The translations under genes and the position numbers were made by a program. Positions 10,280-18,730 of a stretch of DNA of 64,000 nt are shown here, piece after piece. The first letter of the stretch is position 1, and every line of letters begins with the position of its first letter. The DNA is from an uncultured Acidimicrobiia bacterium (lineage in GTDB: Bacteria; Actinomycetota; Acidimicrobiia; Spongiisociales; Spongiisociaceae): contig OY282370.1 of the NCBI GenBank assembly GCA_958295745.1, positions 1,958,548 to 2,022,547 of the forward strand, in the 5' to 3' direction. Under the pieces are notes generated by a model. That model was not told the origin of the DNA and made no database searches. It was given only the letters and a program-made list of their open reading frames with translations.

Positions 10280-11689
10280 ATGAAGCAAGGAGAGATACAG
10301 CAAAGGCTGGCCGACACCAACCGTTGGTGGAGCGACCCGCGCGGCTGGGTGAGGGACGACCCCGATCTGCGGGAGGCGGCCGAGGCGCGGTTCCACCGCC
10401 CCTACACGGCGGGCGTCCTCGACGATTTGACGAAGGGCAGTCTGTATGTGCTGCGCGGCCCGCGCCGGGTGGGCAAGTCGGTGGAGGTCAAGCGGACCAT
10501 CGAGAAGCTGGTGTCCGAGGGTATAGAACCGCGGCGGATCGTGCATATGTCCGTGGACGGTTGGAACGCCTCCGACCTGGGGCGGTTGGCGGGGGCCGCT
10601 TCCCAAATGACGCCGAGGGACGGGCCTCGCTGGTGGTTCATAGACGAGATCACCGGAATATCCGACGGCTGGGCCGAGCAGATCAAATGGCTCCGGGACA
10701 ATGATGGCCGCTTCCGCACGGATACGGTAGTTCTCACCGGCTCGTCCTCCTCCGGGCTCCGGGAATCGGTAGGAATCCTGGCGGGCCGTCGGGGCCGGGT
10801 TGCCGCCCCTGACCGGGTGTTGCTCCCGATGGGGTTCCGATCCTTCGCCCGCCTGACCACCGGGAGGAAACTGCCGGACGGGGTAGGCCGTCTGCGAATC
10901 GCCGACCTCACTCCGCCGCGCCTGGCGGAGGCGGCCTACGAGATAGCTCCTTGGCTGCATACCCTGGCAGACGCCTGGGAGTCCTACCTGCAGGTCGGGG
11001 GCTTCCCCAGGGCGGTGGCCGGTTACCTCGCCTCTCTGGTGGTGGACCCGGCGCTGGAGGCGGAGCTGCTCAGGGTCATCAGCGGTGACGCTTTCCGCTT
11101 GGCCCGTATCACCGATCTCCAGACCAGCGCACTGCTGAGGCGGCTGACGGACGGGTTGTGCTCCCCGTTCAACGTGGCCCGCCTGGCCAGGGAACTCGAC
11201 GTTTCCCAACCCACCGCACAGCGTCGGATCGACGACCTCAGGGAGGCTTTCGTGGTGTGGCCTGCGCCCCGCGAGAGTGATGGGTTCCCCAACCTGAGGC
11301 CGCAGCAGAAGCTCTACTTCACCGATCCGATCTACACCCGGCTGGTTCCCGGCGCCAGGCTCGACCTGACCGTTCTGTCCGAGCAACAGCTGGGGATGGT
11401 GCTGCTACGCAACCTCGAACAAGATCACCCCGGCAGCTACGTCCAGTTCGATCGGGTTCTCCACTACCGGTCGAAGAGCGGCGCCGAGATCGACTTCGTA
11501 GGCAGGGGCTTCGGGGGCGCCGCCATTGAGTCCAAGTACGTCGACGGTGGCTGGAGGCGGGGGGCGGCCAAGACGATCAGAGCCACCAAGCGGCGTGGTG
11601 TCGTCGCCACCCGCACCGAGATCGACCTCGAAGACCCCGAGGTATGCGCAGTACCCACTGCAGTGCTCGCCTGGCTGCTGGACGACTGA
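10280..11689 (+). CDS. AAA ATPase with DUF4143 C-terminal domain
   Basis: A 469-residue protein. Walker A is RGPRRVGKSVEVKRTI near residue 61, Walker B is WWFIDEITG, and the sensor-like strand is VVLTGSSSSGLRES. A winged-helix-like segment with LARELDVSQPTAQRRIDDL follows near residues 295-315. The C-terminal nuclease-like DUF4143 region reads HYRSKSGAEIDFVGRG, then AAIESKYVDG, resembling the E/D-x-D...E-x-K layout of the restriction-endonuclease fold. Such ATPases are common in accessory regions and often move horizontally; their function is largely unproven. The start ATG follows GGAG at 10271. It is flanked by repeated sequences on both sides. Confidence 0.8.
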   Translation: MKQGEIQQRLADTNRWWSDPRGWVRDDPDLREAAEARFHRPYTAGVLDDLTKGSLYVLRGPRRVGKSVEVKRTIEKLVSEGIEPRRIVHMSVDGWNASDLGRLAGAASQMTPRDGPRWWFIDEITGISDGWAEQIKWLRDNDGRFRTDTVVLTGSSSSGLRESVGILAGRRGRVAAPDRVLLPMGFRSFARLTTGRKLPDGVGRLRIADLTPPRLAEAAYEIAPWLHTLADAWESYLQVGGFPRAVAGYLASLVVDPALEAELLRVISGDAFRLARITDLQTSALLRRLTDGLCSPFNVARLARELDVSQPTAQRRIDDLREAFVVWPAPRESDGFPNLRPQQKLYFTDPIYTRLVPGARLDLTVLSEQQLGMVLLRNLEQDHPGSYVQFDRVLHYRSKSGAEIDFVGRGFGGAAIESKYVDGGWRRGAAKTIRATKRRGVVATRTEIDLEDPEVCAVPTAVLAWLLDD

Positions 11690-12033: not shown

Positions 12034-12084
12034 GGAAACTACAAGCTTCCTTTTTCGGCTCAGCCGGGGTCGGGCCGGTTGATG

Positions 12085-12360
12085 TCAGAAGTAGGCTATC
12101 ACCCCGGCGAGGAACAAGATCAGCAACACTAGGCCGCCCAGGGTGATGGCCAGCCCGGCGATTGCCAATCCTCTGCCGGGGCTGCCTGGGGCCTTGGCGC
12201 GGTTGTAGCCGATGGCGGAGAACACGAGGCCGAGCACCCACAGGATGAGGTTGACAACGACCACCCAGAAGAGGGCCAGCGCCAGCACAGCCAGAACGAA
12301 TCCGGCTGTGGCGATGCCGTTCCTCCCGCTTGGTGTAGTTGTTGTTGGTTCGCTGGTCAT
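12085..12360 (-). CDS. DUF4190-like small membrane protein, copy 1
   Basis: A 91-residue protein with a Thr-rich hydrophilic N-terminus and two predicted membrane helices: ATAGFVLAVLALALFWVVVV and, after the loop YNRAKAPGSPGRGLAIAGLA, a second helix through GGLVLLILFLAGV. The arrangement GLAIAGLAITLGG is typical of DUF4190 proteins, whose function is unknown. The ATG is preceded by AAAGGAG with good spacing. It is about 90 percent identical to the copy 455 bp upstream, with differences concentrated at the loop after helix 1 and the C-terminus. Confidence 0.8.
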   Translation of the reverse strand: MTSEPTTTTPSGRNGIATAGFVLAVLALALFWVVVVNLILWVLGLVFSAIGYNRAKAPGSPGRGLAIAGLAITLGGLVLLILFLAGVIAYF

Positions 12361-12539
12361 CGAGGTCTCCTTTCAGGACTCGCTCCGCTGATGCGCCAAG
12401 CCTGCGCTCTACGCGGTCGGCATGGGGCGCCGACGGATGGAGCTATAATACAAGCATTCCGACGACGCCTAGGTCGTTGCTCCTGCCGGAAACTACAAGC
12501 TCCCTTTTTCGGCTCAGCCCGGGGTCTGGCCGGTTGATG

Positions 12540-12815
12540 TCAGCTGAAGGCTATCGCTCCGGCGATGAACAGGATTATCAACACCAGGCCGCCCAGGGTG
12601 ATGGCTAGCCCGGCGATTGCCAATCCTCTGCCGGGGCTGCCTGGGGCCTTGGCGCGGTTGTAGCCGATGGCGGAGAACACGAGGCCGAGCACCCACAAGA
12701 CGAAGTCGACAACGGGCACCCAGAAGAGGGCCAGCGCCAGCACTGCCAGAACGAATCCGGCTGTGGCGATGCCGTTTGTCTCGCTTGGTGTGGTCGTTGT
12801 TGGTTCGCTGGTCAT
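12540..12815 (-). CDS. DUF4190-like small membrane protein, copy 2
   Basis: A 91-residue paralogue of the neighbouring gene. It has the same start context (AAAGGAG then ATG), two predicted membrane helices, and the conserved loop with AKAPGSPGRGLAIAGLA. It differs mainly in FWVPVVDFVLW where copy 1 has FWVVVVNLILW. Both copies are leftward and each has its own upstream region, so they may be independently expressed. Function unknown. Confidence 0.8.
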   Translation of the reverse strand: MTSEPTTTTPSETNGIATAGFVLAVLALALFWVPVVDFVLWVLGLVFSAIGYNRAKAPGSPGRGLAIAGLAITLGGLVLIILFIAGAIAFS

Positions 12816-12965
12816 CGAGGTCTCCTTTCAGGACTCGCTCCGCTGATGCGCCGAGCCTGCACCCTGCGCGGTCGGCATGGGTGCACCGACGGATGAGGCT
12901 ATAATACAAGCATTCCGATCAGGATATCCGGTTCTCGCGGGAACGGGGTATCCTGGCGGCGGTAC

Positions 12966-13167: not shown

Positions 13168-14448
13168 TTATTCGATGCGTTCGATGTCGGCGCCCAGGGC
13201 GTTCAGCCGGCGGTCGATGGCCTCGTATCCCCGCTCGATCTGCTCCGCGTTGTTGATCAGGCTTTCCCCCTCGGCGACCAGGGCGGCGATGAGCAGCGAC
13301 ATGCCGGCCCGGATGTCGGGGCTGGACATGGTGCTCGGCCGGAGCCTGGTGGGGCCGAGGACGACGGCCCGGTGGGGGTCGCAGAGGACGATCTGGGCGC
13401 CCATGCTGATGAGGTTGTCGACGAAGAACATCCTCGACTCGAACATCTTCTCGTGGATCAGGATCGAACCGTGGGCCTGGGTGGCGGCGACCAAGGCGAT
13501 GCTGGTCAGGTCGGCGGGGAAGGACGGCCACGGCCCGTCTTCGATCTTGGGGATGGCGCCCCCCAGGTCGGGCGATATGACCAGGGGCCCGTTGAACATC
13601 ATTCGTGCGCAGCTGTCGGGGAACGGATCGTATTTGATCCCCAGACGTTCCCAGGCCAGGTCGATCGGTTTGTTCATCTCCGGCCGGTACCCGCCGATCG
13701 TGATCGGGGATCTGGTCACCGCCGCCAACGCCATCAGGCTTCCCACCTCGATGTGATCCGGGCCGATGGTGTAGGAGCATCCGTGCAGGGAGTCCACCCC
13801 CTGGATTTGGAGGATGTTGCTGCCGACCCCGCTGATTTGGGCGCCCATTGCGTTCAAGAACATGCAGAGGTCCTGAACGTGGGGTTCGCAGGCGGCGTTC
13901 TCGACCACGGTGTTCCCCTCGGCCAGCACCGCTGCCATGATCAGGTTCTCGGTGGCGGTTACCGACGGCTCCTCCAGGAACACGACGGACCCTTTGAGGG
14001 TTCCGGCCCGGAATCGGTGGTTGCCCACGAAACTGTAGACGGCGCCCAAGGCTTCGAGGCCGCGCACGTGGTCGTCGATGCGGCGCCGTCCGATCACGTC
14101 TCCACCGGGGGGAGGAAGGGCCACCTCGCCGAAACGGGCCACCCCGGGGCCGGCCAGAAGGATGGAGGCCCTGATCTGCTTGGCCCGCTCGACGGCTATG
14201 GCCGAGGTGGTGACCCCGTTGCATCGGATACTGATGGTTCCCGGCCCGGTGCTCTCGATGGAGGCGCCCATGTCCCCCAGGATTCCGAGCAGGGTGAGCA
14301 CGTCGCCGATCTGCGGGACGTTGTGGAGTGTGACCGTTTCCTCGGTCAGCAGACATGCGGCGATGATGGGGAGAGCGGCGTTCTTGTTGCCGGACGGCTC
14401 AAAGTGGCCGTTCAGTCGGGTAGGCCCCCGGACCAGGAAACTCGTCAT
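13168..14448 (-). CDS. murA: UDP-N-acetylglucosamine 1-carboxyvinyltransferase with Asp117
   Basis: First committed step of peptidoglycan synthesis: transfer of enolpyruvate from PEP to UDP-GlcNAc. The 426-residue protein is full length. Active-site Lys22-Asn23 are in SGNKNAALP, the catalytic Asp is in FPADLTSIAL, and the Arg is in DIRAGMSLLIAALVAEGE. The flexible loop that normally has GGCAIG reads LPPPGGDVIGRRRIDDH, so the fosfomycin-alkylated Cys is Asp117. This matches mycobacterial and chlamydial enzymes. It lies 14 bp past the tRNA-Phe gene in convergent orientation. Confidence 0.95.
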   Translation of the reverse strand: MTSFLVRGPTRLNGHFEPSGNKNAALPIIAACLLTEETVTLHNVPQIGDVLTLLGILGDMGASIESTGPGTISIRCNGVTTSAIAVERAKQIRASILLAGPGVARFGEVALPPPGGDVIGRRRIDDHVRGLEALGAVYSFVGNHRFRAGTLKGSVVFLEEPSVTATENLIMAAVLAEGNTVVENAACEPHVQDLCMFLNAMGAQISGVGSNILQIQGVDSLHGCSYTIGPDHIEVGSLMALAAVTRSPITIGGYRPEMNKPIDLAWERLGIKYDPFPDSCARMMFNGPLVISPDLGGAIPKIEDGPWPSFPADLTSIALVAATQAHGSILIHEKMFESRMFFVDNLISMGAQIVLCDPHRAVVLGPTRLRPSTMSSPDIRAGMSLLIAALVAEGESLINNAEQIERGYEAIDRRLNALGADIERIE

Positions 14449-14531: not shown

Positions 14532-15044
14532 TCATGTGTGGATCTTGATGTCCGAACAGCTATGACCGCAGAGAAACAGGCATTGATAGATCCTCGTATA
14601 GATCTGCTCGGCGAGCAGGTCTGCCTCAATGTAGACGCCAGTGGACATCAGCTGCTTCGGGCGTCTGAGATCGTCGGGGTCGTATGATGCGTATCGCTGA
14701 CCTCCCTGCGGGCCCAGAGGGTCCAGCAGACGGTCTAGGAATGCTGTCCCGTGCCGCTTGTAGAGGGCTTCCGCTACCCCCATGAGTATTTCTATCCAGG
14801 ATCTTACATAGTGAGGTTTACCCCAGAGCCGGTAGCCGGTGGGCTTTTCCCACGGATGGGCAGGGAGTGGGTACGGTTTTGAGGGTTGATCTCGTGAACC
14901 GCGTAGTACCTCCACGACCTGCTCCTGGTCTGGTCGTATGTCAACCAAATCATATATCCGCTGCCTGACCAGATCCACAAGTTCGTCATCGGGCTCGGCC
15001 TGCATGAATTGCCAGACTTTTTCGATAGTTTGTTGCAATGGCAC
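14532..15044 (-). CDS. third gene of nuclease/HEPN operon: nuclease-less paralogue with shared C-terminal domain
   Basis: A 170-residue protein starting at GTG (15044) with AAAGGAG upstream. Residues 1-8 (MPLQQTIE) match the start of the first gene's product (MPLRETLE). Residues about 9-55 (KVWQFMQAEPDDELVDLVRQ, then IRPDQEQV) match that protein's residues 176-222. Residues 66-170 are the shared C-terminal domain (KPTGYRLWG, ALYKRHG, RRPKQL, GHSCSDIKI). It therefore looks like the first protein with its nuclease domain deleted. It could be a regulatory or structural partner. It follows gene two by 36 bp. Function unknown; lower GC than the flanks. Confidence 0.75.
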   Translation of the reverse strand: MPLQQTIEKVWQFMQAEPDDELVDLVRQRIYDLVDIRPDQEQVVEVLRGSRDQPSKPYPLPAHPWEKPTGYRLWGKPHYVRSWIEILMGVAEALYKRHGTAFLDRLLDPLGPQGGQRYASYDPDDLRRPKQLMSTGVYIEADLLAEQIYTRIYQCLFLCGHSCSDIKIHT

Positions 15045-15080
15045 GGGACAGGTCTCCTTTCTTGATTCCGTTCGGAAGTG

Positions 15081-15821
15081 TTAGTCGTACAGAATTTCGA
15101 GGTCCGAGGGTGGATGACCGAAGATGCTCAGCACCCTATAGGCTCTCTTGATTATCTCATCAATGGGAAGGTTTCTATTCATATAGAGGTCCGTAGACCC
15201 TACTTGCCTTGGACGAGAGAAGTCAGTGCGATTGTACGATACGTGTGGGTAGCGGTAAACTAAATTCTTTCCGTATTTCTTGTAGAGTGCTTCTAACACC
15301 CGTTCCAGCACTTCTATCCCGGACCTGACTGCGCGTTGTTCTTCCCAGAGCCGAATTCCGGTAGGCCTTCGAGTTAGTGGCGGATCAGGGTTCACAATAC
15401 CGGGTTTTTGGCCCGCTTTTCGCAGGCCTAGCTTGAGGTCTCGCACTTTCTCTGCCTCTTTGGTAGCTCGGAAAGCATTAAGTAGCATCTCGCAGTGGTC
15501 AAGAATACGGAAGGTTTCTTCGTAGCTGAATCTCTTGTTGTGCGCCCATTCGTTGCGGGCTTCCCACAGTAGGTGCAAATAGCTACGGGTTCTCCGGGAG
15601 TGGGTATTGCGGAACAGGTTCCAGGTGGCGTCCATCCCTTTGAGCAGAAAGATCAGATCATCGGGGCTGGCGACGTCTTTCCAATAATTAATCTGATGGC
15701 TTACCTTCTTGATCCAAGCCTTCCCGAAATGGGCTCGCCATGTTCTCTCCAATTCGGGAAGAATAGTGTCGCGTACCAGAGTCAGCACCTTGCCAACCTG
15801 TTCGTGATTAGTCGTGGCCAT
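15081..15821 (-). CDS. Swt1-type HEPN protein with shared C-terminal domain
   Basis: A 246-residue protein. Residues about 15-118 are helical and resemble the Swt1-type HEPN domain. The HEPN ribonuclease motif R-x4-H appears as R89-NEWA-H94, after DATWNLFRNTHSRRTRSYLH. HEPN domains with this motif are usually RNases in toxin and defence systems (established knowledge). Residues 151-246 form the C-terminal domain also found in both neighbours (RRPTGIRLW, ALYKKYG, SRPRQV, GHPPSDLEIL). The ATG at 15821 follows AAGGATAGGT, 9 bp after the first gene's stop, so it is co-translated. No helicase or methylase is present. Confidence 0.75.
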   Translation of the reverse strand: MATTNHEQVGKVLTLVRDTILPELERTWRAHFGKAWIKKVSHQINYWKDVASPDDLIFLLKGMDATWNLFRNTHSRRTRSYLHLLWEARNEWAHNKRFSYEETFRILDHCEMLLNAFRATKEAEKVRDLKLGLRKAGQKPGIVNPDPPLTRRPTGIRLWEEQRAVRSGIEVLERVLEALYKKYGKNLVYRYPHVSYNRTDFSRPRQVGSTDLYMNRNLPIDEIIKRAYRVLSIFGHPPSDLEILYD

Positions 15822-15830
15822 ACCTATCCT

Positions 15831-16892
15831 TCAGTCAAACAGGATTTTGAGGTCAGAGGAAGGATAGTCGAAGAGATTAAGGAACTCACACACTCTGAAC
15901 TTTATTTGCTTGGCGTTCAGGTTTGTTTCAAGATAGACGTCTTCATCCTTCATTTTTCGCGGCTCGCGGAGCTCGGTGAAAGTGCGCGAGGCGTATGGGT
16001 TTCCCTTCTTAGTCTCGTAGGCTAGTAGTTTCTTGATAAATTCTGCACCATGCTGATTATGGACAACATTGGCTACACCAAGGAGGAGGTCTTTCCATAA
16101 CTTTATAGTGTAGTATTCCCCCCAAATCCAGAAGCCGGTGGGTTTCTTCGATTTTGCTCGTTGGCTAGGTGGTTTCGGCGGTATGAGTGCGGGCTTGGTA
16201 GGAACTAGCTTACGCGACACGACGGTTGGAATAGGCGAGCCGCTCAGCATCGCTGTTACTTGCTTAGAGTCAGGCCGGAGGCCTATCTCTTTATATGCCC
16301 TTTGTCTGACCAGATCTACCAGGTCGCTGTCGGGTTCGGTCAGCATGGATTGCCAGACCTTGGGCAGTTTTGCCTCTACCTTGGCAGCTTGGTGCTTGGC
16401 TTTGAGGACCTGTTTGGCTCTCTTATGGGCATTCTCATTCACTAGGTTGTCTTTGCCTAGGAAGGTCTCCAAGTCGTCAGCTAGCTGCTCGATCGGGTCC
16501 TTCTTTATACGCAGAGAGGTGAACCGCCGTTCCTTGGGCGGGCCTTTTTCCAGCGGTAGGTACAGCCACCATTCCAGCCCGTTGGTAAGCACGCAGATGT
16601 CCACTCCCTCGTGAAATGCGTAGCCGAGCACTTGTCCCACATGTGGCTTGAGGTCTTGAGCAGGTGCCTTGGCCTCAATGAGCGCAACGAGGTTATTAGG
16701 CCCCTTGAGTGCGATATCTACCTTGCCTTTACCTTTGTCGCCTACGGGGTATTCGTACAGAACCTGATTGGGGTCGAAGGTATTCCAGCCCAGATCCATC
16801 AGGATGGGTGCCAGGATCTGGAACTTGGTGGTCTCCTCGTTCTCAGGCGGTGGTGCTGAGCGGATTCTTTCGAGTGTTTCTCGCAACGGCAT
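15831..16892 (-). CDS. HsdR_N-like PD-(D/E)xK nuclease-domain protein with shared C-terminal domain
   Basis: A 353-residue first gene of a three-gene operon. Residues about 20-150 form a type I restriction HsdR_N-like nuclease fold: TTKFQILAPILMDLGWN, then D59, E73-A-K75 in VALIEAKAP, and the QxxxY motif Q87-VLGY91, followed by VLTNGLEWWLY. Residues 150-222 are charged and helical, and 223-248 form a Pro/Lys linker. Residues 249-353 are the domain shared with the next two genes (KPTGFWIWGE, YLETNLNAKQI, YPSSDLKIL). It lacks any helicase motor. GAGG precedes the ATG. It is divergent from argS across 74 bp. Confidence 0.78.
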   Translation of the reverse strand: MPLRETLERIRSAPPPENEETTKFQILAPILMDLGWNTFDPNQVLYEYPVGDKGKGKVDIALKGPNNLVALIEAKAPAQDLKPHVGQVLGYAFHEGVDICVLTNGLEWWLYLPLEKGPPKERRFTSLRIKKDPIEQLADDLETFLGKDNLVNENAHKRAKQVLKAKHQAAKVEAKLPKVWQSMLTEPDSDLVDLVRQRAYKEIGLRPDSKQVTAMLSGSPIPTVVSRKLVPTKPALIPPKPPSQRAKSKKPTGFWIWGEYYTIKLWKDLLLGVANVVHNQHGAEFIKKLLAYETKKGNPYASRTFTELREPRKMKDEDVYLETNLNAKQIKFRVCEFLNLFDYPSSDLKILFD

Positions 16893-16928
16893 GGCAGGTA
16901 CCTCGGAGCTTGATTTTGGCAGTCTAGT

Positions 16929-16948
16929 CCGACCGGGTGTCTGGTCGG
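16929..16948. promoter_or_regulatory. inverted repeat between divergent promoters
   Basis: CCGACC-N8-GGTCGG lies in the 74-bp space between the nuclease/HEPN operon (leftward) and argS (rightward). Its position between the two start regions suits an operator. No regulator gene is adjacent, so one of the operon's own products could bind it (inference). Confidence 0.4.
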
Positions 16949-16966
16949 TCTATCCTGCCGTCTCGT

Positions 16967-18730
16967 ATGAGTGTGCTGTCTGAACTCGGTGCGGTGGTGG
17001 GGGCGGGGTTCGCCGCGGTCGGCCTCGATCCAGGTTGCGGCGCGGTGTTGGTCTCCAACCGCCCTGACTTGGGCCAGTTCCAGTGCAACGGGGCCTTGGC
17101 GGCGGCGCGGCAGGCCGGGCGGAACCCCAGGGAGATCGCGGATGCGGTGGTGAGCGAGATCGCATCCGACCACAGGCTGGCCGGCCTGTCGGTGGCCGGG
17201 CCCGGCTTCATCAACATCTCACTCACCGATGAAGCGATCGCCGGGTACATGAACGCCATGGCGGACGATTCACGGCTGGGGGTGGCCCCGTCCGGCGCCC
17301 CGCTCGTGGTGGTCGTCGACTACGCCGGCCCCAACGTGGCCAAGGCCATGCATGTGGGGCATCTGCGTTCCACCATCATCGGCGACAGCCTCAAACGGCT
17401 GTTCCGCTTCGCGGGGCATAGGGTGCTGGGGGACGCCCACTTCGGCGACTGGGGCCTCCAGATGGGCATGCTGATCGCGGCGGTCCGGGAGCGTTATCCC
17501 GGCCTGCCCCACTTCGACGAGGCGCTGGACGGGCCCTATTCCGAACCATTGCCCATCACGCTGGCCGACCTCCAGGAGTGGTACCCGGTCATGGCGGCCC
17601 GGGTCGGGGAGGACGAGGACCTGGCCGGGGAGGCGCGCCGGGCCACTAGGGAACTCCAGTCGGGCCGGGCGGGGTACGTGGCCCTGTGGGAGCACTTCGT
17701 GAAGGTGTCGCGGGAATCGCAGGAGCGGGACTTCGCCGATCTGGGGGTCGAGTTCGACCTCTGGTACGGCGAGAGCACCGTCCGCGACCTGCTCCGGCCG
17801 ATGGTCGATGAATCGCTGGCGGCGGGGGCGGCGGTCGAGTCGGATGGGGCGGTGGTGATCGAGGTGGCCGAACCTGACGACAAGACCGATGTCAGCCCCT
17901 TGATCGTCCAGACCTCCCACGGCGCCTTCCTGTATGGGACCACCGACCTGGCCACCATCGAGATGCGGGTGGACGAGATGGACGCCGACCTGATCCTGTA
18001 TGTGGTGGACGCCCGCCAGTCCTATCACTTCGAGCAGGTGTTCCGAGCGGCTAGCCGCACCGGGGCGGCCGGGGGGGCGGCCCTCGAGCACATCCGGTTC
18101 GGGACCATGAACGGATCCGACGGTGCACCCTTCAAGACCAGGTCCGGCGGGGTGCTGAGGTTGAGGGACCTGATCGAGATGGTCACCGCCGCGGCGGCCG
18201 CCCGGCTGGACGAGTCGGATCTGGCGGCCGGCTACCCGGAGGCCGAGAGGTCCGCCATCGCCCGCCGAGTGGGTGTTGCCGCCCTCAAGTTCGGGGACCT
18301 GGTGAACAACCGGGCCTCCAGCTACGTATTCGACCTGTACCGCTTCACCGCATTGGAAGGCAAGACAGGCCCCTACTTGCAGATGGCGGCGGTGCGGATG
18401 GGGTCGATACTGGACAAGGCGGCCGGGCTGGGCCTCGCATCGGGCCCGATCGCGCCCCCCGCCATGGAGGTGGAGCGCCGCCTGATGCTGCGGATGCTGC
18501 AGCTGCCCGAGATCATCGAACGGGCGGTCGAGCTGCGGGCCCCCAACCATCTGGCCGAGTTCGCCTATGAGACGGCCGCCGACTTCAGCAGGTTCTACGA
18601 GGCCTGCCACATCCTTACCGAGCCGGACGCCGGACGCCGGGCTTCCTGGCTGGCTTTGGTGGGCGCCGCTAGGCGGACCCTCGAGCTGTTGCTGGAACTG
18701 CTGGGTATCGAGATTCCCGACCGTATGTAG
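16967..18730 (+). CDS. argS: arginyl-tRNA synthetase
   Basis: Charges tRNA-Arg. The 587-residue class I synthetase has an N-terminal Add-1 domain (residues 1 to about 85), the HIGH-like motif in VDYAGPNVAKAMHVGHLRST, and catalytic-core segments LGDAHFGDWGLQMGMLI and FGTMNGSDGAPFKTRSGG, which stand in for KMSK. The C-terminal anticodon-binding DALR domain ends LELLGIEIPDRM. I chose ATG 16967 rather than the GTG at 16937: TATCCT at 16951-16956 lies 10 nt before this ATG with no Shine-Dalgarno, as expected for a leaderless message. Confidence 0.95.
   Translation: MSVLSELGAVVGAGFAAVGLDPGCGAVLVSNRPDLGQFQCNGALAAARQAGRNPREIADAVVSEIASDHRLAGLSVAGPGFINISLTDEAIAGYMNAMADDSRLGVAPSGAPLVVVVDYAGPNVAKAMHVGHLRSTIIGDSLKRLFRFAGHRVLGDAHFGDWGLQMGMLIAAVRERYPGLPHFDEALDGPYSEPLPITLADLQEWYPVMAARVGEDEDLAGEARRATRELQSGRAGYVALWEHFVKVSRESQERDFADLGVEFDLWYGESTVRDLLRPMVDESLAAGAAVESDGAVVIEVAEPDDKTDVSPLIVQTSHGAFLYGTTDLATIEMRVDEMDADLILYVVDARQSYHFEQVFRAASRTGAAGGAALEHIRFGTMNGSDGAPFKTRSGGVLRLRDLIEMVTAAAAARLDESDLAAGYPEAERSAIARRVGVAALKFGDLVNNRASSYVFDLYRFTALEGKTGPYLQMAAVRMGSILDKAAGLGLASGPIAPPAMEVERRLMLRMLQLPEIIERAVELRAPNHLAEFAYETAADFSRFYEACHILTEPDAGRRASWLALVGAARRTLELLLELLGIEIPDRM

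Follow-up and report, generated by a model that had tools for sequence, protein, structure and literature searches.

The window analysed here, a stretch of 64,000 nucleotides, contains three adjacent genes, designated g1, g2 and g3, that are directly bounded by murA and argS. The features of this locus are as follows:

13168..14448, minus strand: murA (UDP-GlcNAc 1-carboxyvinyltransferase, by sequence), the conserved flank of the locus.
14532..15044, minus strand: g3, 170 aa, a nuclease-free paralogue of g1 (BLASTP, start homology, AlphaFold2 and fold search).
15020..15079, minus strand: leader and first 8 codons of g3, derived from the g1 start, with the deletion junction after codon 8 (sequence comparison).
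15081..15821, minus strand: g2, 246 aa, a Swt1-like HEPN domain and a SeqA-like C-terminal domain (Pfam, motif and C-domain alignment).
15831..16892, minus strand: g1, 353 aa, an HSDR_N-type nuclease, a linker domain and a SeqA-like C-terminal domain (Pfam and catalytic residues).
16868..16927, minus strand: leader and first 8 codons of g1, the source of the g3 start (sequence comparison).
16937..18730, plus strand: argS (arginyl-tRNA synthetase, by sequence), the divergent flank.

The intergenic gaps are 9 nt between g1 and g2 and 36 nt between g2 and g3, which is consistent with an operon. A cognate methyltransferase is absent from this operon, and its G+C content (0.51-0.55) is below that of the window (0.66).

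HSDR_N is a family that covers the N-terminal part of the R subunits of type I restriction enzymes. The nuclease domain of g1 matches this family above the Pfam cut-off (PF04313, 27.5 bits) and carries the PD-(D/E)XK residues D59, E73-x-K75 and Q87, which are kept in 37 of the 38 aligned family nuclease domains, a set in which some rows represent the same gene fetched twice. It is followed by a three-helix linker domain (residues ~172-222) and the SeqA-like domain (~249-353). Unlike a type I R subunit, the 353-residue protein gave no helicase match and has neither HsdM nor HsdS beside it, and on these grounds is not an HsdR; g3 departs further in having no nuclease. By layout, g1 resembles a putative small modification-dependent endonuclease: as in the type IV (modification-dependent) restriction enzymes, a nuclease whose catalytic site is intact by sequence is joined to a putative DNA-reading domain, with no methyltransferase beside it (PMC11037411). 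The characterised m6A-dependent fusion endonucleases use winged-helix readers, and the m6A-reader passage of the same paper names winged-helix, YTH, ASCH, HARE-HTH and RAMA domains (PMC11037411). SeqA does not occur in the text of PMC11037411, and g1 differs from the fusion endonucleases described there in having a SeqA-type reader.

The second gene, g2, encodes a HEPN domain well above the Pfam cut-off (HEPN_Swt1, PF18731, E 3e-16, 60.2 bits versus a cut-off of 27.5) in which the RxxxxH motif is intact (RNEWAH, from residue 89), and its C-terminal domain aligns with those of g1 and g3. This fusion to a SeqA-like domain distinguishes g2 from Swt1-like HEPN proteins, for which the accessible part of a HEPN survey names AAA+, Vsr and wHTH fusions; according to the same survey, restriction systems are frequent companions of HEPN domains from this group (PMC3710099). 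In the openly available literature searched, SeqA-type nuclease fusions were not described, whether in connection with HEPN proteins, with type IV restriction or with GIY-YIG domains.

The earlier note had proposed that g3 is an internal-deletion copy of g1. The gene runs from 15044 to 14532 on the minus strand, with a GTG start, 170 codons and no internal stop, and is preceded by an intact AAGGAG Shine-Dalgarno sequence 9 nt ahead of the GTG; the coordinates, the open frame and the intact ribosome-binding site agree with that note. Its C-terminal alignment with g1 was likewise recovered, as BLASTP aligns nearly all of g3 with g1 residues 172-350 (37% identity, E 6e-38). The first residues of the two proteins (MPLRETLERI in g1, MPLQQTIEKV in g3) are encoded by DNA that is identical at 20 of the first 27 nt. 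Since a match over eight residues might arise by chance, we compared the DNA around the two starts: over 90 nt, the start region of g3 scores 52 with that of g1, a value reached in 0 of 20,000 dinucleotide shuffles, and the next best among 199 other ORF starts in the window scored 31. The N-terminal match therefore exceeds chance, while the 60 nt upstream of g3, taken alone, have weak similarity to the region upstream of g1 (p ~0.03). We also considered whether g3 begins with a cut-off piece of the g1 interior that acquired its own start codon, and rejected this because the g1 interior preceding the junction is unmatched (p 0.65) and the g1 start is matched.

Two details of the proposed deletion required correction. 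Residues 9-55 of g3 are indeed homologous to the region of g1 named previously (176-222), but the numbering was off by two, the counterpart being 178-224; overall, g3 residues 9-168 align to g1 178-350. The nuclease domain is lost, as claimed, though not exactly: the absent segment comprises g1 residues 9-177, that is the nuclease domain and ~65 residues downstream of it (~114-177). We conclude that g3 is almost certainly a paralogue of g1 with an internal deletion, and it would have arisen by duplication of g1 followed by an in-frame deletion that fused g1 codon 8 to codon 178. Identity between g1 and g3 is 57% in the three-helix domain, falling to 36% in the SeqA-like one. By its start, g3 most resembles the g1 of its own genome, whereas the C-terminal domain of g3 is 44% identical to that of the related genome G004 versus 36% to that of g1, and the trees support no single branching order of g1, g3 and the G004 sequence.

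An AlphaFold2 model of g3, built from 24 aligned sequences, has a mean pLDDT of 89.1 and contains a three-helix domain (residues 1-48; helices 3-16, 20-34 and 40-47), a disordered linker (49-64) and a SeqA-like alpha/beta domain (65-170). Helix 1 crosses the deletion junction in this model and is completed by the new start, so that a folding unit was kept intact across the junction. What the deletion left is thus a self-contained protein in which a flexible linker connects the helical domain to the SeqA-type domain. For the three-helix domain, the PDB offered no convincing match (Z 2.7 or less with the better model).

SeqA, the reader of methylated DNA in E. coli, is a sensor of hemimethylated DNA that acts at oriC and controls replication in enterobacteria. 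The C-terminal domain of ~100 residues that is common to g1, g2 and g3 had no convincing match among Pfam, NCBIfam and PADLOC models in any of the three proteins, and the SeqA profile (PF03925) gave no match in g3 at E values up to 1. A distant homologue, L070, is the only one to pass the curated cut-off (7e-7), two Chloroflexi homologues fall under it (1.5e-4 and 5e-3), and in five family genomes the best genome-wide PF03925 match, also below cut-off, is this C-terminal domain. Profile comparison of 43 such domains with SeqA using hhalign gave a probability of 96.9 and an E value of 1.7e-10. For the fold search, we compared two AlphaFold2 models of g3, from alignments of 3 and 24 sequences, with the PDB. 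SeqA entries took all the top places with both models (Z 9.0-10.1, with an rmsd of 2.1-3.3 across 90-100 residues), namely 3SK7 (10.1 and 9.7), 3FMT (9.6 and 9.5), 1LRR (9.5) and 1IU3 (9.0 and 9.2), and the next folds scored Z 5.1 or 2.7; the model with a mean pLDDT of 89.1 scored Z 9.2-9.7 against SeqA. We have little doubt, therefore, that the domain common to g1, g2 and g3 has a SeqA-type fold. The likeness to the C-terminal domain of SeqA (PF03925; 1LRR, 3FMT, 3SK7) covers the fold of the whole domain, a detectable profile homology and the motif order, in which an RGRKRxYxS loop precedes an xGxYxxTNLS loop. Unlike SeqA, the domain is fused here to nucleases, to a HEPN domain or, in g3, to the three-helix domain.

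The residues through which SeqA contacts GATC (R116, T117, R118, N150 and N152; PMC6225831) are, by contrast, only partly kept in the family. L070 retains four of the five (R-K-R / N, N), g1 two (K-G-N / N, N), g2 one (a gap / N, P) and g3 none (G-G-Q / D, L). Failing both the Pfam cut-off and the contact residues, g3 is not classed as SeqA; the fold is familiar, but its context is new, and g3 adds to this a non-catalytic copy generated by deletion. As the fold is shared but the contacts differ, GATC reading should not be assumed, least of all in g3, whose SeqA-like domain is nearly neutral (pI 7.9, versus 9.0 in g1), and the differing contacts together with this near-neutral charge mean that DNA binding by g3 could be lost. 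On balance we lean towards the prediction that g3 does bind DNA. L070:1678-2355 encodes a T5orf172/GIY-YIG-like domain fused to the SeqA-like domain and, with four of the five GATC contacts, is the strongest candidate among these proteins for genuine methyl-adenine reading. GATC is not avoided in the window (480 sites observed, 481 expected). The genome to which the window belongs (G000) contains at least 10 N6_N4_Mtase matches over the cut-off, together with a single strong match to MethyltransfD12, and the host DNA is therefore probably extensively methylated.

To judge whether g3 is decayed or constrained, we compared its divergence with that of g1. At codon positions 1/2/3, divergence from the outside homologue L028 is 0.42/0.33/0.63 for g3 versus 0.46/0.36/0.62 for g1, and from L040 it is 0.50/0.42/0.69 versus 0.51/0.45/0.71. 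Divergence from outside homologues is thus the same for g3 as for the intact g1, which indicates that the two genes have been under similar constraint since the duplication. Only ~0.5% of simulated neutral copies still had a stop-free frame after 0.3 substitutions per site. The codon-position bias specific to the g3 branch was suggestive but not significant (positions 2 versus 3, p 0.067). These data bear out the view that g3 is a kept paralogue rather than a product of decay, with frame and ribosome-binding site intact, constraint equal to that of g1 and a protein predicted to fold, and g3 is very probably under selection as a protein. Comparison of g3 across related genomes, as suggested previously, was carried out and returned no other g3 in the order, so that conservation could not be demonstrated; with g3 from one genome only, the case for purifying selection is built on comparison of paralogues, not orthologues.

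This restriction to a single genome would also be expected if g3 were a functionless, lineage-specific relic that by chance is still open, and at the same locus of a related genus (G001, the argS-murA site, L032:5416-6656) a g1 homologue truncated inside its SeqA-like domain is followed by another, leftover SeqA-like domain in a different frame. That second domain is sister to g3 in one tree (96/77), but its identity to g3 (35%) is no closer than to other homologues (32-38%). A relic would not, however, be expected to show divergence equal to that of functional g1 homologues, nor a strong ribosome-binding site, a frame without stops or frameshifts and a confidently predicted fold, and we consider this explanation improbable.

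We searched 138 genomes of the order with the shared domain; g2 and g3 were seen in this genome only. No orthologues of g3 were found in the search of genome contigs, nor were any found for g3 among plasmids, and viral contigs gave no match with a g1 homologue, L070 or E. coli SeqA as query. Homologues of g1 occur in members of the family and in MAGs titled Acidimicrobiia/Acidimicrobiaceae and Dehalococcoidia/Chloroflexi, several of which have isolate names that suggest sponge-associated samples. In nine genomes, from three genera of the Acidimicrobiia family to which the window belongs, g1 is at a fixed site near murA, and in the window as well as in G001 and G004 it is bounded by argS opposite murA. 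The same neighbourhood lacks g1 in G003 and G008, which belong to a single genus. Identity of g1 across the family is 44-54%, versus ~79-80% for murA and argS, murA of the window being ~80% identical to its counterparts in 12 other family genomes. Thus g1 has mostly been inherited in place, yet diverges far faster than its neighbours.

Several of the homologues have architectures that bear on the role of g3. In four proteins (L087, L090, L093/L034 and the second copy in L086) a single nuclease is followed by two SeqA-like domains or by three, so that the addition of reading heads is a recurring change among g1 homologues. In L087:6001-7809 the nuclease is followed by three such domains, the last two being nearly identical, which represents a recent internal duplication. 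A tandem pair in Dehalococcoidia (Chloroflexi; L094:6001-8685) consists of a first copy with intact HSDR_N and SeqA-like domains and a second copy that has lost all PD-(D/E)XK residues and kept the SeqA-like domain; this second copy may be a convergent nuclease-dead partner, independent of g3. An extra segment of the first copy (~246-320), between the linker and the SeqA-like domain, had no Pfam match. In all three Chloroflexi loci (L094-L096) the g1 homologue has a RecQ-like helicase gene (by sequence) either as its neighbour or a few genes away. Other arrangements were observed in G004, where the SeqA-like domain is fused to an N-terminal membrane-helix-like segment (L030:6469-6981) or to an unrecognised N-terminal region (L031:2329-3246), and where a second HEPN_Swt1/HSDR_N-SeqA-like gene pair is present (L029:4049-5574), whose HEPN motif looks damaged.

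A partner role for g3 is favoured because the same domain is fused in extra copies in cis and because an independent nuclease-dead paralogue is located beside an intact copy in L094. Our best reading, held with about even confidence, is that selection has kept g3 as a partner of g1 and g2 that reads DNA but does not cut it, and that may have a regulatory, dominant-negative or scaffold role as the earlier note proposed. In this scheme g3 would be the non-cutting subunit of a DNA surveillance operon that senses modification or sequence, in which g1 would cut DNA and the HEPN protein g2 would cut RNA. The helical domain that it shares with g1 could allow g3 to enter g1 complexes on DNA or to rival them there, while the diverged SeqA-type surface of g3 might confer a different or weaker DNA preference; overall, g3 would adjust when g1 and g2 act. 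The higher identity between g1 and g3 in the three-helix domain than in the SeqA-like domain would fit, as weak evidence, a common assembly interface with an altered reading surface; the three-helix domain is also the better conserved of the two between g1 and other homologues.

The proteins with several heads behind one nuclease could also be taken to mean that g3 supplies an extra reading head in trans, giving multivalent binding that activates or targets g1 instead of inhibiting it. SeqA requires two neighbouring sites for strong binding (PMC6225831), in line with such a role, but with none of the five SeqA contact residues kept in g3 we regard it as unlikely. Slightly less likely still is that g3 binds DNA by itself, as SeqA does at oriC, and covers host sites or the promoter of its own operon, acting as a competitor that protects them or as a repressor of transcription. 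Although a small helical N-terminal domain, flexible linker and SeqA-type domain resemble the layout of SeqA itself (PMC6225831), the contact residues are lost in g3, its three N-terminal helices returned no match to the SeqA N-terminal domain (a missing match being no proof of absence), and promoter-like sites in the region occur only at chance level. It is also conceivable, but highly improbable, that g3 is an antitoxin or immunity partner of g2 and not of g1: the two genes are adjacent and co-occur only here, and in many toxin-antitoxin pairs the toxin is a HEPN protein (PMC3710099), but g3 comes from g1 rather than from a known antitoxin and shares only the SeqA-like domain with g2.

By combining a nuclease with a copy that lacks the nuclease domain, the operon represents a clean natural experiment on the role of non-catalytic subunits. 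The DNA-binding fold of SeqA, carried here in distant bacteria as a mobile module by nucleases and by a HEPN protein, is a further candidate reader beside those known for adenine-methylation-dependent restriction. A broader proposal, which we put forward tentatively and think possible rather than probable, is that SeqA-type methyl-adenine-reading domains are interchangeable heads of DNA- or RNA-cutting effectors (HSDR_N, GIY-YIG-like and HEPN) in Acidimicrobiia and Chloroflexi, regulated in this lineage by a deletion-born nuclease-free subunit to form a modification-sensing defence operon. If true, the operon would be of a kind for which we found no description in the literature searched.

Elsewhere in the window, positions 12064-12363 and 12519-12818 form a 300-nt direct repeat (92% identical) that holds two copies of a gene for a 91-aa DUF4190-like membrane protein. 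Genes for tRNA-Asp and tRNA-Phe are located beside this repeat, and an AAA_14/DUF4143 ATPase gene (10280-11689) is found upstream of the tRNA genes.
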